Source: Spirochaetales bacterium (lineage in GTDB: Bacteria; Spirochaetota; Spirochaetia; Sphaerochaetales; Sphaerochaetaceae). Taken from it: a DNA stretch of 64,000 nt. Shown here in pieces: positions 18,623-42,200 of this stretch. The translations under genes were made by a program, and so were the position numbers. The number at the start of each line of letters is the position of its first letter. The stretch's first letter is position 1. The notes under the pieces are model-generated. The model did not search any database, had not been told where the DNA came from, and saw only the letters and a list, made by a program, of their open reading frames with translations. Location of the stretch: the NCBI GenBank assembly GCA_018433865.1, contig JAHDQJ010000003.1, forward strand, positions 186,001 to 250,000, written 5' to 3'.

Positions 18623-20998
18623 TCAGAATTCCACGTAGGTCTTTCCGTACCCACCGTCCTCGGGCCGTGCGAAGTAATAGGAGGAGACTCCTTTCTCATG
18701 CCTGAGGTAATCGTGTATGCCCCGTGCAAGGATTCCATCACCCATACCGTGGATGATGGAGAAGCTTCCGATCGAGTGGACAAGTGCCCCCTCGATCTGG
18801 CTCTTCACCACCTCGAGTGCCTGGTCGAGCGTCATACCACGCACATCGACCGTTGGCAAGGGTACGACAGAACGGGACTCATAGGAGATGGACACCTTCT
18901 TCTGTTCCTTGGCCCGCCTTGACGACACGTGCCTGAGATCCCGCTCGTGCATCGGGAACTTCATCGGTCCGATCGCGACGAGCCACTTGCCTTGCTTCTC
19001 CTTCCTGACAATCCGGCCTTCCCGCTTGTGCGGTCCGGCAAGCACATCCATGCCTACCTCGAATCCCCCTTCCTCGGGTGTTTCCTCTTCAAGGACCTTC
19101 CGTTCCAGTTCCTGTACCTTCTGCTCACTCACCGTGCGCTGTTGCTCAAGCGAGGTGATGAATGATTTCACCTTCTTCGTCTTCTCGCGTGTGATCTCTC
19201 CTTCCCGCAGCTGTGCCACCAGGTTCTCAAGCTCGCTTCGCTTCTCATCGATGAACCGGGACAGGTCACCGATCTGCTCGTGCCTGAGGAGCTGTTCCTG
19301 CTGTTTCAGTTGCAAGTCCTTGAGATCCATCCTCCGCACCTGCTCCTGCAACTGCCGGGCACGATCGTCCAGGGCCCTCGCACGCAATTCCGACTCCCGT
19401 CTTTTCTGCTCAAGCTCCCTGATGATCGTGGATATCTCAACCATCTCAGAACCGATGTACCGTTTGGCTTGGTCCACCACCTCCGGGGGAATTCTCATGC
19501 GGACGGCAGTATCGATGGCGTGGCTCTCTCCCGGCAGCCCTGCGATGATGCGGAATGTCGGCTCATGGGTGTTGTCATCGAACTCCATCGATGCATTCAC
19601 CAGGTGCGGGTGTGCATAGGCATATTGCTTCAACACACTGTGGTGGCTGGTGACGAGTGTCAACGCACCGTGGTCGACGCAATATTCGAGGATAGCCCGC
19701 GCAAGGGCCGAACCCTCAACCGGATCGGTTCCGCTGCCTAGTTCATCAAGCACGAGCAGGGAATCGGAGGTGCAGGAGGTCAGTATCCTCCCGATATTCT
19801 GCATGTGACCGCTGAAGGTCGATAACGATCTCTCGATCGACTGGTCGTCCCCGATGTCGGTGAATACCGAACGAAAGAGCGGGAGGACGGTCCCCTCAGC
19901 TGCAGGAACGAAGTAGAGGAACTGGTGCATGAGCACGAACAGGCCGACGGTCTTGATCGTGACCGTCTTTCCTCCAGCGTTCGGACCGCTGATCACGACG
20001 GCCTTGATGCCCTCGTCCAGCTCGATGGTGATGGGGACCGCACGTTCCTTCAGAAGCGGATGCCGGGCCTGGAGCAGCAGCAGGTGACCGTCGGTGCTTG
20101 CCGAAGGGCGGCAACACTGGTAGCGCATCACGTAGCGGGCACGGGCATACAGCGAGTCTGCCCACCGGACCTGTTCGGTCAACCTGACCAGCTTGTCCAG
20201 CTGTGCATGTACTTTCAGCGACAGGTCGGCGAGTATCCGTGCGATTTCAATCTGGATCTGCTGCTGTGCCATCACGACCTGGTTGTTCAGCTCGACCAGA
20301 CGGTAGGGTTCCATGAACACGGTCGCACCGGATGAGCTGGTTGAGTGCACGAGTCCCTCAAGGGTCGAACGCTGGTCGTTTCGTACGGGCAGGACGACAC
20401 GACCGTCCCTGAACAGCGGTTGGACGGTGGAGGCACCTTCGTGATGCGTCCTGAGGAAATCAGTGCTGTATGATTGGCGTTCGGATCGCCGCTTCTCAAA
20501 TTCGCGTGTCAGCCTGACGATCGCAGGGTGGCTCGGTTTCACCACACCCGGTGCCTCCAAGGTATCGAGGAGGACTTTGGCAAGGGTCGCAAGATCAGGA
20601 TCGAACGGCTCGAAAAGGGTTCCTGCCGGTTTCACCGGTTCGTCCGAAGTCGGTTCTCCAGGCATCTTGCGCGGCATGCGGCAATATTCCGTGAACAGAC
20701 GTGCCGCCTCAAGGTATTGCGCTACGGTATACAGCGACTCGCCATCCAGCCTTCCGCCGACCAGGTGCAGCTGATCAAGCACCTCGGAGACAGGAGGGAA
20801 CGGGATCGGCGAATCCTTTCCATACGTGGTGAGCGAGATGAGATCCTCCACGATGTCCTGCCTGTAAGAAATTTCTTGCTGATCATGCAGGAAACCTTGC
20901 GATCGCAGCTCTTCGCGCCCCTCCTCCGAGAGGCAGTACCTGGCCAGTTCCTCGAGCACCTGGGGAAACTGCAGGTCCTGTATTGTCCGTTCGTCCAT
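18623..20998 (-). CDS. mutS2: Endonuclease MutS2
   Basis: About 791 residues. MutS core and clamp domains without the N-terminal mismatch-recognition domain are followed by an ABC-type ATPase with GPNAGGKTVTIK near residue 340 and LVLDELGSGTDPVEG. A long coiled coil spans about 510-640, a small KOW-like segment (GMDVLAGPHKREG) comes next, and a C-terminal Smr nuclease domain carries DVRGMTLDQAL and IHGMGDGIL. MutS2 acts on branched DNA in recombination control and, in some species, on collided ribosomes. The ATG at 20998 is better placed than the one at 21004, since GAGG lies 6 nt before it. It follows rsgA by 8 bp and is probably cotranscribed with it. Confidence 0.96.
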   Translation of the reverse strand: MDERTIQDLQFPQVLEELARYCLSEEGREELRSQGFLHDQQEISYRQDIVEDLISLTTYGKDSPIPFPPVSEVLDQLHLVGGRLDGESLYTVAQYLEAARLFTEYCRMPRKMPGEPTSDEPVKPAGTLFEPFDPDLATLAKVLLDTLEAPGVVKPSHPAIVRLTREFEKRRSERQSYSTDFLRTHHEGASTVQPLFRDGRVVLPVRNDQRSTLEGLVHSTSSSGATVFMEPYRLVELNNQVVMAQQQIQIEIARILADLSLKVHAQLDKLVRLTEQVRWADSLYARARYVMRYQCCRPSASTDGHLLLLQARHPLLKERAVPITIELDEGIKAVVISGPNAGGKTVTIKTVGLFVLMHQFLYFVPAAEGTVLPLFRSVFTDIGDDQSIERSLSTFSGHMQNIGRILTSCTSDSLLVLDELGSGTDPVEGSALARAILEYCVDHGALTLVTSHHSVLKQYAYAHPHLVNASMEFDDNTHEPTFRIIAGLPGESHAIDTAVRMRIPPEVVDQAKRYIGSEMVEISTIIRELEQKRRESELRARALDDRARQLQEQVRRMDLKDLQLKQQEQLLRHEQIGDLSRFIDEKRSELENLVAQLREGEITREKTKKVKSFITSLEQQRTVSEQKVQELERKVLEEETPEEGGFEVGMDVLAGPHKREGRIVRKEKQGKWLVAIGPMKFPMHERDLRHVSSRRAKEQKKVSISYESRSVVPLPTVDVRGMTLDQALEVVKSQIEGALVHSIGSFSIIHGMGDGILARGIHDYLRHEKGVSSYYFARPEDGGYGKTYVEF

Positions 20999-21006
20999 AA
21001 CCATCC

Positions 21007-21948
21007 TCAGCGTCGATCGCTTTCCCAGCTTTCCGGCCGGTCTTCGATCGATGCGATCATCCGCAGGTAGCTTTCATACCTATCGGGGTGTATCATGCCC
21101 TTTTCCAGCGCATCCTTGACTGCACAACCGGGTTCATGATCATGCAAACAAGGCTGAAATGAGCATTTCTGAGCAAGATTTCTGAATTCAGGAAAAGAAT
21201 CAGCCAGCACGTGCGGATCTTCGTGGGGAACGAGCAGCTCACGCATGCCGGGTGTGTCGACAACCCTGAAGGTGCGTGCATCCAGCATGATCGCGTGGTT
21301 GGTGGTGTGCCGGCCCCGATGGAACTTGCTGGAGATCTCTCCGGTCCTTTGCATTTCGTCCTCTCCGAGCAGGGCGTTGGTGATCGTAGACTTGCCAACA
21401 CCGGACTGTCCGATCAGTGCGACCGTCAATCCCGCGAGACGCGCTCGCAGAGCGATGATGCCTGCTTGGTCGAACGCACTCATCGCGAAGATCTCGTACC
21501 CCAGCTCCCCATATAGCCGGAACCGCTGTTCCTCTTCCCCTGTCAGTGCCAGGTCACACTTGTTCAGCACGATCATGACGGGAATCTTGTGGGAACATGC
21601 GATCGCCCGGTCGATGAACCGGGGACGGAAAGGAGGATCGTTGGTACTCGTGATGCAGAGGATCCGGTCCATGTTGGCAACCAATGTCTGGTTCACCTGT
21701 CGCTTGGCATTCCACCGTGCAAAGCTGTTGCGTCGTTCGAGCCGCGACAGCACCATCCCGTCATGTGTGTAGATGACCCGGTCCCCGACGGCGAGCGGAT
21801 TATAGGAATCCTCGACATCCTGCAGGACCTTCCCCTTGATGCGGCAGAAGACGGGAGTCGCGGTAGAGAGTTCCTGTGCTTGCTCCACAGGAACCACGGT
21901 GTAGATATTGTTGATGCCTCGCGTGATCACCCCGATGCGTTCGCTCAT
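21007..21948 (-). CDS. rsgA: Ribosome small subunit-dependent GTPase RsgA
   Basis: A 313-residue circularly permuted GTPase for late 30S assembly. It has an N-terminal OB-fold, then the G motifs in permuted order: NKCD, GQSGVGKST, the RHTTNHAIML switch and DTPGM. A C-terminal zinc-binding motif CSFQPCLHDHEPGC follows. All key residues are present. There is no Shine-Dalgarno sequence; instead a -10 box TAGAGT lies exactly 6 nt upstream of the ATG, so the mRNA is predicted to be leaderless. mutS2 follows in the same direction. Confidence 0.97.
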   Translation of the reverse strand: MSERIGVITRGINNIYTVVPVEQAQELSTATPVFCRIKGKVLQDVEDSYNPLAVGDRVIYTHDGMVLSRLERRNSFARWNAKRQVNQTLVANMDRILCITSTNDPPFRPRFIDRAIACSHKIPVMIVLNKCDLALTGEEEQRFRLYGELGYEIFAMSAFDQAGIIALRARLAGLTVALIGQSGVGKSTITNALLGEDEMQRTGEISSKFHRGRHTTNHAIMLDARTFRVVDTPGMRELLVPHEDPHVLADSFPEFRNLAQKCSFQPCLHDHEPGCAVKDALEKGMIHPDRYESYLRMIASIEDRPESWESDRR

Positions 21949-21954
21949 GCGACC

Positions 21955-21983
21955 ACTCTACCGACAATCGTGCGCATGTGCAA
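21955..21983 (-). promoter_or_regulatory. Promoter of rsgA (predicted leaderless)
   Basis: TTGCAC (21978-21983), a 17-bp spacer and TAGAGT (21955-21960) on the minus strand. The -10 is followed by GGTCGC and then the rsgA ATG, placing +1 at or next to the A of the start codon. Confidence 0.6.
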
Positions 21984-21992
21984 GTTATTCGC

Positions 21993-22021
21993 TTTACAGG
22001 GCTTCCCCTATTTGGTAGGCT
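21993..22021 (+). promoter_or_regulatory. Promoter of the pentapeptide gene (predicted leaderless)
   Basis: TTTACA (21993-21998), a 17-bp spacer and TAGGCT (22016-22021) on the plus strand, then CCAATC and the ATG at 22028. No ribosome-binding sequence precedes the ATG. It is back to back with the rsgA promoter, 9 bp separating the two -35 boxes. Confidence 0.6.
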
Positions 22022-22027
22022 CCAATC

Positions 22028-22609
22028 ATGTTCAAATGCGTACCCTGTGCAGTGGATGGATGCAAGCGCTATGCCCTCGAGGAGATGTATACGTGTCTCC
22101 AGCATGCACAGAACAGCGCCGAGGTACTCCAGTCGCTGATCTTCACCCTCACCGACTCGCACCGTCATCGCGATATCGTGATGACCGATGTCCGCCTCAA
22201 AGATGTCGATTTCTCCAAGGTACATCTGACTACCTGCGATTTCGCACGCTGCGTGTTCGAACGGGTCGATTTCTCGGATGCGAAGGTCCAGGCATGTTTC
22301 TTCGATTTCTGCATCTTCGAGGATTGTACCTTCGACGGGTGTGATGCCCGCCACTCCGTGGTCGCGGGATCCAAGCTGTTGAACTGCTCATTCAAGGATT
22401 CGCTGCTCATCCACACGAATTTCATGGGGATCGATGCACATGACTGCGACTTCAGCTCTTCCGATCTCTATTCGTCGAGCTTCTGCTCATCCCACCTGGT
22501 GAATGTCAGGTTCATCGATTGCAACCTGAAGAGTGCGGACTTCCGGTTCACCGAGCGCATGGGGGTTTCGTTCAAGTACTCCAACTATGAGGAGGCGAGC
22601 TTCTCGTAA
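22028..22609 (+). CDS. Pentapeptide-repeat protein with N-terminal Cys/His cluster
   Basis: 193 residues. The first 26 hold a compact Cys4-x2-Cys7-x4-Cys12 group and Cys23-x2-His26, which could bind zinc. From about residue 55 the sequence follows the pentapeptide pattern A(D/N)(L/F)xx, for example DVDFSKVHLTTCDFARCVF and FIDCNLKSADF, predicting a right-handed beta-helix of roughly five coils. Many repeat positions carry Cys. The function is unknown; such helices often mimic DNA or serve as protein-binding rods, but nothing here points to a target. A leaderless start is predicted. The MBL-fold gene follows after 5 bp, so the two are probably cotranscribed. Confidence 0.8.
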   Translation: MFKCVPCAVDGCKRYALEEMYTCLQHAQNSAEVLQSLIFTLTDSHRHRDIVMTDVRLKDVDFSKVHLTTCDFARCVFERVDFSDAKVQACFFDFCIFEDCTFDGCDARHSVVAGSKLLNCSFKDSLLIHTNFMGIDAHDCDFSSSDLYSSSFCSSHLVNVRFIDCNLKSADFRFTERMGVSFKYSNYEEASFS

Positions 22610-22614
22610 TTGCC

Positions 22615-23229
22615 GTGAAAGTATTCTTCCACTTCTCTCTCAACGAATATGCGAACACCTATCTCATCGGTCCCGAGGATGGAGGAGACGCGATCCTGAT
22701 CGATCCCGGCCATATCGACCTGGAGCTCATCGAAAGGATCGAGAGCAACCGCTTCACGATCGCCCACGTCCTGCTGACCCATCGTCACGCCGCGCATACC
22801 GAGGGACTCGGCACCTTGGTGAAGATCTATGATCCGACCGTATATGCCGGTTCGCCCAGTGTGTACGACCATCCCGTACGCGCGGTACAGGACCGTGCCA
22901 TCATGGACCTCTCCGGAATAACGGTGGAAGCGATCCAGATCCCCGGCCACACCATGGATTCGTTCGTCTACCGAATCGGAAACTCCCTGTTCACCGGAGA
23001 CGTCCTCTATGCAGGCAGGATCGGCAGTACGAACGGTGTAATGGAGAAGGCTTTGCTGCTGAAGGGGATCAAGAATCGGCTGTTGACCTTGGATGAACGG
23101 TTCCTGATCTTCCCCGGGCACGGCACGATCTCGGCGCTGAAGATTGAGAAGCTCTTCAATCGGGAACTGATTGATGCCATGGCGATCGATGACCTCGAGC
23201 AGCTGAGCCACCCGTCCATCCTCACTTGA
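22615..23229 (+). CDS. MBL-fold metallo-hydrolase (glyoxalase II-like)
   Basis: A 204-residue metallo-beta-lactamase-fold protein. The first metal motif reads T-H-R-H-A-A-H (His56, His58, Ala60, His61), so the Asp normally found in HxHxDH is replaced by Ala. The other ligands are in place: PGHT, FTGDVLY and FPGHG. Loss of the Asp would weaken the second metal site, so activity may differ from glyoxalase II; no substrate can be named. The start is GTG at 22615; no good ribosome site is near, and reinitiation after the pentapeptide gene 5 bp upstream is likely. The 3' end overlaps the convergent rluD by 8 bp. Confidence 0.85.
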   Translation: MKVFFHFSLNEYANTYLIGPEDGGDAILIDPGHIDLELIERIESNRFTIAHVLLTHRHAAHTEGLGTLVKIYDPTVYAGSPSVYDHPVRAVQDRAIMDLSGITVEAIQIPGHTMDSFVYRIGNSLFTGDVLYAGRIGSTNGVMEKALLLKGIKNRLLTLDERFLIFPGHGTISALKIEKLFNRELIDAMAIDDLEQLSHPSILT

Positions 23230-39241: not shown

Positions 39242-42200
39242 TCATGCCAATCGCTGCAACGTCTCCAGGATGAACAGTGACTTGTCCTTCAGGGAGACCG
39301 CATCGGTCCGTAAGGTCAACACATTCATGCGTCTTTGGTCAATACCCACCTTCCCGTTGCCCAGGCGGATCAGTTCCATGACCTTGTCGATCGAGATATC
39401 CTTCACTTTCGCGAACTCGACCGTGACCAAGCCGTTGCGCTCTTTCAAGTGCTGGATCCTCAACTTCCTGCAGATGATCTTCAACTCTGCGATGTACAGA
39501 AGATTCACCACGACCTCAGGCATCGGCCCGAACCGGTCCTCGAGCTCAGCGGTAAGCCCCTGGAGCTGTACGTCAGCGTGTATGCTGGCGATTTTCTTGT
39601 ACACTTCGAACTTCACCGAAGGCTCGCTGATATAGGAGTCCGGTATGAATCCGGAATAGTCGAGTTCGAGGAAGACCTCCTTGTCCTCCTCGATCGAACC
39701 ATCCTTCAGCATCTCGGCGATCGTTTCGTCGAGGATGCGCAGGTACATGTCCAGCCCGACCGAAGCAAGCTGTCCGCTTTGTTCCCTTCCGAGGAGATTG
39801 CCGGTCCCCCGGATCTCCATGTCCTTCATCGCGATCTTGAAACCGCTGCCAAGCTCGGTATGCTCCGATATGATCTTCAGTCGTTTCACGGCGATCTCGC
39901 TGATCACCGAGAGCTCGGGATAAAACAGGTAGGCAAAGGCCTCCTGATCGCTCCTGCCGACCCGACCGCGCAACTGATAGAGCTGGGATACACCGTAACG
40001 GTCGGCCCGGTCGATGATGATCGTATTGACGTTCGGGATATCGATGCCGTTCTCGATCAGCGTGGTGGAGACAAGGACCTGGATTCCCTGGTGGATGAAG
40101 CGGCGCATGATGTCTTCCATCGCCTCCGGATCCATCTGCCCGTGGATCGATTCGATGAGGATGTCGGGCATCTGGGTGTTCAGCATCCTCACCACTTCCT
40201 CGAGCGTATTGATCCGGTTGTGCAGGTAGAACACCTGTCCTCCCCTGCCCAATTCGAAGCGGATCGCCTGCACGATCGTCGCGATGTCGAAATCCCTGAT
40301 AACCGTCTTGATCGGACGCCGCTGTATCGGTGGCGTGGTGAGCAGGGACATGTCGCGAATTTTCAGAAGGGACATGTACAATGTCCTGGGAATAGGGGTC
40401 GCGGAGAGGGCGATCGAATCGATATTTGCCTTGAGCTCCTTCACACGCTCCTTGTCCTTGACTCCGAAACGCTGCTCCTCGTCGATGATCAACAGTCCGA
40501 GATCCTTGAATGCCACATCCTTTTGCAACAATCTATGGGTGCCGACCAGGATGTCGACCTGCCCCTCCTTCAACCGGCCGAGGATCACACGTTGTTCCTT
40601 CTTCGGAATGATCCTGGAAAGCAGTTCCGTCTTGACCGGGAATTGGCCGAGGCGCTGTTTCAGCGTCTCATGGTGCTGCTCGGCAAGGATCGTCGTCGGT
40701 GCGAGGAAGGCGACCTGCTTTCCGGCCATCACCGCCTTGAAAGCTGCACGCAACGCAATCTCCGTCTTTCCGTACCCCACATCGCCACAGACCAGACGGT
40801 CCATGACTGTCGGACTCTCCATGTCCCGCTTGATGTCCTCGATGCAGGTGAGCTGATCCTCCGTCTCCTCGAACGGAAAGGAGGCTTCGAACTCCAATTG
40901 CCAATCCGTATCCTTGGGAAAGGGGAACCCCTTGCTGCTCTTGCGCCTTGCATAGAGCTGGATCAATCGGCTGGCAAGCTCCTCTGCCGATTTCCGCGCA
41001 CGGGCCTTCTTCGCCTCCCATCCTTGCCCACCGAGCTTGTCAAGCTTGGGATTACCCCCTTCGCTCCCGATATACCGTTGGATGAGGTTGGCCTGTTCGA
41101 TGGGCACGAATAGCGTCTCGTTGTCAGCGTACGCAATCTTGATGTAGTCCCGCTCTTTCCCGCTCATGTTGATCCGATCAATCTTCATGAACTGTCCCAC
41201 ACCATAGTTCACGTGGACGACGTAGTCGCCTTCATTGAGATCAACGAACGAATCCAACGGAGAGGACTGCACCTTGTGCAGGGTCTTGACCACTTGCTTC
41301 CTGCGACCGAATATCTCATGATCGCACATCGCGACGAGATGTTGGCTGAGGATGGTGAACCCTGCACTGATCTCGAGGTCGAGGATCTTCAGGCCCTCGA
41401 ACTGTCCGAGCATGTTCTTCAGTCGTTTCTTCTGAAGCTCCGATCCTGCATAGATCACGACCACATACCCGTTGGTCAGCATTTGCGTAAGTTCTTCCTT
41501 TAGCATGGAAAAGTTGCCAAAGAAAGAACGCGGTCCGTCGATATCGAACACATGGGCACCCTTTGTCTGTCCCCGTACATCCATCACCACGGTACAGCGC
41601 TGTCTCGTCTCCACGAATCGCGGATAATCGAACAGCAGCTCATCGGGCTTCGGGGAAAGGCGATCATCGAGGAATGCCTGCCGGTACAGCGACTTTGCTT
41701 CGACGGTAAGCGAATGGAATGATGATTCGAGCCGTTCCTTTCCGAGGAAAAAAAAGTAGTCCTTCTCGTCTACATAGGCGCCAATGTCCGCAGTCTCGAT
41801 CTTCTGTCGTTCCTTGAGCAGCGTGACGGTGATGTGACCGAGCGTCTTCACCGTATCCTGCGACATCGGATCGAAGGAGGTGATCCGTTCGATCCGCTCC
41901 CAATCGGCATAGATGCGCACCGGATGGGGACTGTCGTAGGGAAAGAAATCGAGGACTTCGCCATGGATCGAGAACTCTCCGGGTACCGAAGTACTCGGTG
42001 ATCGATAATAGCCGCCAGCAGCGAGCGTATCGGCGATTTTGGTCGACTCGAACGGATCGCCGATCTTCAGCCGTATCTCCGACTCCCTCAGCGACCCAAT
42101 GGAGACGACCGGGGAAACGAATGCCCGCAGATGGGTGATGACGAGCCTGGAAGGATGCTCGAGCAGCGCAGCCAAGGATTTCAGCTGGGTATACTCGCGA

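Follow-up and report, generated by a model that had tools for sequence, protein, structure and literature searches.

Two back-to-back sigma-70-type promoters between rsgA and a divergent gene for a pentapeptide-repeat protein are predicted to yield two leaderless mRNAs, both falling within a genome-wide class of leaderless genes, and we put the probability of this reading at roughly 0.86. The two genes lie in a stretch of 64,000 nucleotides from a spirochaete genome (the window, to which the positions below refer). An earlier note had claimed the two leaderless mRNAs, and the conservation of the geometry on both sides suggests that this claim is very probably right. What is said below on 5' ends, mode of translation and polymerase exclusion is in each case inferred from the DNA.

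Promoters in the 79-bp intergenic region

The rsgA gene (21007..21948, minus strand, ATG at 21948) encodes the ribosome small-subunit GTPase A of 313 amino acids (Pfam RsgA_GTPase, E = 3.8e-43), and the protein passes the curated cut-offs of TIGR00157 (186.6 bits against 100) and PF03193 (147.7 against 30). The divergent gene (22028..22609, plus strand, ATG at 22028) encodes a pentapeptide-repeat protein of 193 amino acids (Pfam Pentapeptide_4, E = 3.4e-21), and the AlphaFold2 model of this protein is a repeat of short strands (mean pLDDT 93.2). Identity with Qnr, MfpA or HetL was rejected, the best scores being 33.4, 21.4 and 37.3 bits against cut-offs of 240, 360 and 260, respectively. The N-terminus carries a C-x4-C-x10-C-x2-H motif (22028-22105), which is kept across the class and is possibly zinc-binding. 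Among 36 sequences of the protein, M1, C7, C12 and C23 are invariant and F2 and H26 are found in at least 90%; because the protein is conserved from residue 1, the start codon can be trusted. From their positions, two further genes are probably cotranscribed with the pair: a large ORF 8 bp downstream of rsgA (18623..20998, minus strand), which we take to be MutS2-like, and a gene for a metallo-beta-lactamase-fold protein (22615..23229, plus strand; Pfam Lactamase_B, E = 1e-13), which follows the pentapeptide gene after 5 bp and would be the second gene on its transcript.

The two ATG codons are separated by 79 bp. On the minus strand, the putative -35 element TTGCAC (21978..21983) is followed by a 17-nt spacer and the -10 element TAGAGT (21955..21960), which ends 6 nt before the ATG of rsgA. 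On the plus strand, TTTACA (21993..21998) is likewise followed by a 17-nt spacer and TAGGCT (22016..22021), again 6 nt before the ATG, and the TGG directly before TAGGCT is of the extended -10 type. The geometry given in the earlier note was exact to the base, and its statement that a Shine-Dalgarno sequence is missing also holds, none of AGGA, GGAG and GAGG being seen upstream of either start. The TAG of each -10 box is an in-frame stop codon (TAG AGT GGT CGC ATG, four codons upstream of the rsgA start, and TAG GCT CCA ATC ATG), and this rules out a more distant start codon for both genes. Zheng 2011 (PMC3160421), in the part drawn on here, describes TA-led (leaderless) genes by a TANNNT that precedes the start by about 12 bp and by the lack of a Shine-Dalgarno sequence. 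Both genes fit this description, with 6 nt from the end of the hexamer to the ATG, no Shine-Dalgarno sequence and a firmly set start codon. The -35 hexamers do not overlap in the window but lie 9 bp apart, so that the overlapping core elements of a bidirectional promoter with shared elements are absent here.

Each promoter matches the consensus at a modest 8 of 12 bases, and a generic promoter scan (cut-off 9), for which about 1.6 better matches per 4 kb are expected by chance, listed neither of them; the consensus score alone was therefore dropped as evidence. The promoters become convincing because their hexamers and spacing are conserved in relatives. Two relatives also have 79 bp between the genes; in a comparison of these with the window, the promoter elements agree at 23 of 24 bases, versus 20 of the 55 other bases. 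Judged by this conservation, the predicted promoters are far beyond chance, though not when taken singly.

Conservation of the two starts in relatives

Named bacterial genomes were searched with an alignment of the pentapeptide protein, which gave 91 loci, and the 80 that we kept all come from records named as spirochaetes. Joined with whole-genome matches, these cover Spirochaetia with 81 distinct sequences upstream of the pentapeptide gene (left out were three loci in which the motif was missing from its usual position and six named loci that were truncated or began at a codon other than a start codon). In 49 of the 81, the distance from a TANNNT to the start is exactly 6 nt (300 shuffles gave a mean of 2.3 and at most 8), and in 67 it is 5-8 nt (mean 8.7, at most 18); the other 14 have no TANNNT within that range. 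A -35 element of at least 4/6 matches accompanies it in 58 of the 81, and a Shine-Dalgarno-like word occurs in only 7. Shuffles ignore kinship, and thinning the set shrinks but retains the excess at 6 nt: with protein identity limited to less than 60%, a TANNNT at this distance is seen in 21 of 43 representatives (shuffles: mean 1.2, maximum 6), and at 45% in 8 of 19 (mean 0.5, maximum 4). The leaderless-type start is found also at loci without an adjoining rsgA. Note that in two related loci (L106 and L142) the pentapeptide gene retains TTGACA with no recognisable TANNNT at the usual place.

For rsgA, we used the divergent loci, namely 41 of 82 distinct pentapeptide starts with a divergent rsgA within 260 bp (40 of the 82 have none within this distance, and one locus was too short). 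A TANNNT precedes the rsgA start at 6 nt in 14 of the 41 (shuffles: mean 1.0, maximum 5) and at 5-9 nt in 29, and in most of the leaderless-type relatives the -35 element is TTGCAC or TTGTCA at 17-18 nt. The remaining 12 have a leadered start, mostly with a clear Shine-Dalgarno sequence. In several of these, including that of Sphaerochaeta halotolerans (L107), GGGAG and a more distant start come after the same -10 element TACAGT, suggesting that the promoter is old and that the start codon of rsgA has moved. On the other side of the S. halotolerans locus, the pentapeptide gene appears leaderless (TTGACA-16-TACTGT-6-ATG). The genomes G004 and G024, from a single genus-level group (L098/L012 versus L061/L009), share the rsgA -10 element TACAGT, with the ATG at 6 nt in one and at 17 nt in the other, and the start at 17 nt has the Shine-Dalgarno sequence GGGGAG. 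The earlier note had proposed to check whether the distance from the -10 element to the ATG is conserved; it is, with great clarity at the pentapeptide start, and also in about 70% of the divergent rsgA loci.

We then tallied both sides of the 41 divergent loci, counting a -10 element at 4-9 nt as leaderless-type (five rsgA rows, L067, L101, L106, L117 and L142, are borderline, with 8-9 nt or alternative starts). The start is leaderless-type on both sides in 23 loci, on the pentapeptide side only in 12, on the rsgA side only in six and on neither side in none, and the distance is 6 nt on both sides in 10 of the 23. In 12 of the 23, one 7-bp sequence, TTGACAA, forms both -35 elements (TTGACA or TTGTCA, depending on the strand). 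Of the other pairs, that of the window and those of four relatives have 9 bp between the two elements, two have 17 bp and two others 19 bp, and in the last two the elements partly overlap or lie far apart. These comparisons suggest that the divergent leaderless arrangement is old in this spirochaete group and that the predicted leaderless start of the pentapeptide gene is the more durable of the two. The most distinctive features would be this class-wide leaderless start and the single TTGACAA that apparently serves both genes in about half of the pairs.

Leaderless-type starts elsewhere in the genome

We examined a 724-kb sample of the genome, in which a simple gene finder gave 638 genes, 444 of which start with ATG and have 25 nt or more of space upstream (the finder sets starts imperfectly, placing that of the pentapeptide gene, for example, at the GTG of codon 9). 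A -35 element with a TANNNT 5-8 nt before the ATG was found in 50 of the 444 genes, an excess of about 37 given the 3.3 cases per position elsewhere, and the distance was exactly 6 nt in 29 of the 50. Genome-wide, the distance from the -10 element to the start peaks sharply at 6-8 nt. Two relatives have a similar peak (18/129 and 12/136 genes), and 50 kb of Escherichia coli has none (0/30 genes). Eight of the 68 divergent pairs at most 250 bp apart are leaderless-type on both sides versus 3.1 expected (Fisher p = 0.0013). Another divergent pair of the same genome (G000 contig C34, 163422-163486, L039), 64 bp apart, is leaderless-type on both sides, and its single TTGACAA forms both -35 elements, as in the rsgA pair of the relatives.

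The leaderless-type class of this genome spans genes of many functions. We followed five further genes through one pipeline with 30 loci each; they were picked by hand from recognisable candidates, and three are tRNA-related, so functional enrichment is not claimed. Leaderless-type starts were kept in 24/30 loci for the pentapeptide gene and 17/29 for rsgA, compared with 23/30 for the CCA-adding enzyme, 20/30 for AlaRS and 23/30 for a metallo-beta-lactamase protein that is presumably RNase Z (Pfam gives the superfamily only). The counts for murG (14/30) and ScpA (13/25) are too high, owing to starts that lie far from where they would be expected, the control counts being 3.8 and 4.2, respectively. 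In most relatives, AlaRS (L191-L220) and the CCA-adding enzyme (L161-L190) have a strong promoter, TTGACA with TAGTAT, TACTAT or TAGCAT, 5-8 nt before the start. For these two genes as well, the leaderless-type start appears to be deeply kept.

The earlier note also stated that most genes here have a Shine-Dalgarno sequence. This is true only just, since such a sequence was found in 220 of 402 genes of a 464-kb sample, and in 101 of the 224 genes that have 25 nt or more of space upstream. The anti-Shine-Dalgarno tail is intact in all ten 16S loci examined, from four closed relatives, and therefore leaderless and Shine-Dalgarno starts should both be usable. No 16S gene was found in the assembly itself. 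A stretch of 13 bases that matches the 3' end of 16S rRNA (GGATCACCTCCTT; 41874-41886, minus strand) was discarded because Rfam finds no rRNA there; the resemblance is apparently a coincidence within coding sequence.

Such a class has precedents in spirochaetes. In the part used here, Zheng 2011 (PMC3160421) puts the predicted share of leaderless genes at 1.8-6.9% (mean 3.9%) in 6 of 18 Spirochaetes genomes, finds translation genes less often leaderless, and describes the exchange of SD-led and TA-led starts between orthologues in Actinobacteria. About 440 mapped mRNAs of Leptospira interrogans have a 5' leader of less than 10 nt, about half of them less than 2 nt, according to the portion of that study drawn on (PMC5243855). 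These two reports contradict the view in the earlier note that leaderless translation is rarely described in spirochaetes. As the class itself is already published, rsgA and the pentapeptide gene are to be seen as ordinary members of it. What differs from the TA-led genes as treated in the consulted part of PMC3160421 is that one divergent pair, TA-led on both sides, is traced over relatives. Leptospira is likewise a spirochaete; however, it belongs to another group, and its leaderless mRNAs (PMC5243855, same portion) have experimental 5' ends and little promoter consensus.

Mechanism and alternative explanations

Because each -10 hexamer ends 6 nt ahead of its ATG, transcription would be expected to begin at the A of each ATG, or within 1-2 nt of it. 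The 5'-terminal AUG would then be the sole start signal on both mRNAs. On leaderless mRNAs, a 5'-terminal AUG is used by 70S ribosomes or without Shine-Dalgarno contact, and each AUG would here be read in one of these ways. The region would be occupied by one polymerase at a time; since the -35 elements are 9 bp apart here and coincide in many relatives, two should not fit. Bacterial bidirectional promoters with mutual exclusion have been described (PMC12825309, PMC10268837). As far as the consulted parts of these papers go, those promoters are pseudo-symmetrical, whereas the -35 elements here stand back to back, 9 bp apart or, in 12 of 23 relatives, within the same 7 bp, and both transcripts would begin at the start codons.

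Functionless resemblance to promoters might be invoked on account of the 8/12 matches and the better matches that a generic scan would return by chance, but the conserved hexamers and spacing contradict it, and we give it almost no credence. It is also quite improbable that the promoters are real and that transcription nevertheless begins upstream or both genes carry short leaders, the 6-nt spacing being a by-product of a crowded intergenic space. The modest consensus match of each promoter and the relatives that are leadered behind the same -10 element would agree with such an explanation; crowding, however, would spread the distances broadly, in contrast to the sharp genome-wide peak at 6-8 nt and the 6 nt of the relatives, and from a -10 element ending 6 nt before the ATG a leader beyond a couple of nucleotides is not expected. 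Two leaderless mRNAs thus remain the preferred reading.

The meaning of the leaderless rsgA start is a separate question. The start could be adaptive, with RsgA synthesis tracking ribosome assembly through a preference for 70S ribosomes or a tolerance of immature 30S subunits, and with the pentapeptide protein in the same circuit. The action of the RsgA family in 30S assembly, the leaderless-type starts in 29 of 41 divergent loci and the retention of the divergent pair over long distances would all agree with such a role. On the other hand, 12 of the 41 are leadered, several behind the same -10 element, the leaderless class covers many functions, and the start of rsgA is kept no better than those of the CCA-adding enzyme, AlaRS and the putative RNase Z. 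Our literature search, made mostly in freely accessible journals, found no paper on leaderless rsgA, and none on this rsgA/pentapeptide pair. A special role was consequently rejected as the leading reading, the comparison genes retaining leaderless-type starts at least as well, and we regard it as very improbable. The coupling of rsgA to the 70S/30S balance suggested in the earlier note is unsupported as a special feature, unrelated genes keeping such starts equally or better, and the rsgA start appears to show no sign of leaderlessness kept for ribosome sensing.

A different proposal concerns the other gene: long-term selection across Spirochaetia may keep the pentapeptide gene leaderless whether or not rsgA adjoins it, its start being the functional part of the arrangement. 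We consider this unlikely, though worth stating. If it were true, the pentapeptide protein might, for example, still be made when normal initiation fails, and the expression of rsgA would be set by competition for the shared or adjoining -35 element.

Annotators should note that, in this group, a start lacking a ribosome-binding site is often correct. The rsgA genes of G004 and G024 would offer a natural experiment in switching from a leaderless to a leadered start behind what is apparently the same promoter, and the divergent pair as a whole would be a clear case, open to checking, in which spirochaetes have retained leaderless initiation for very long.
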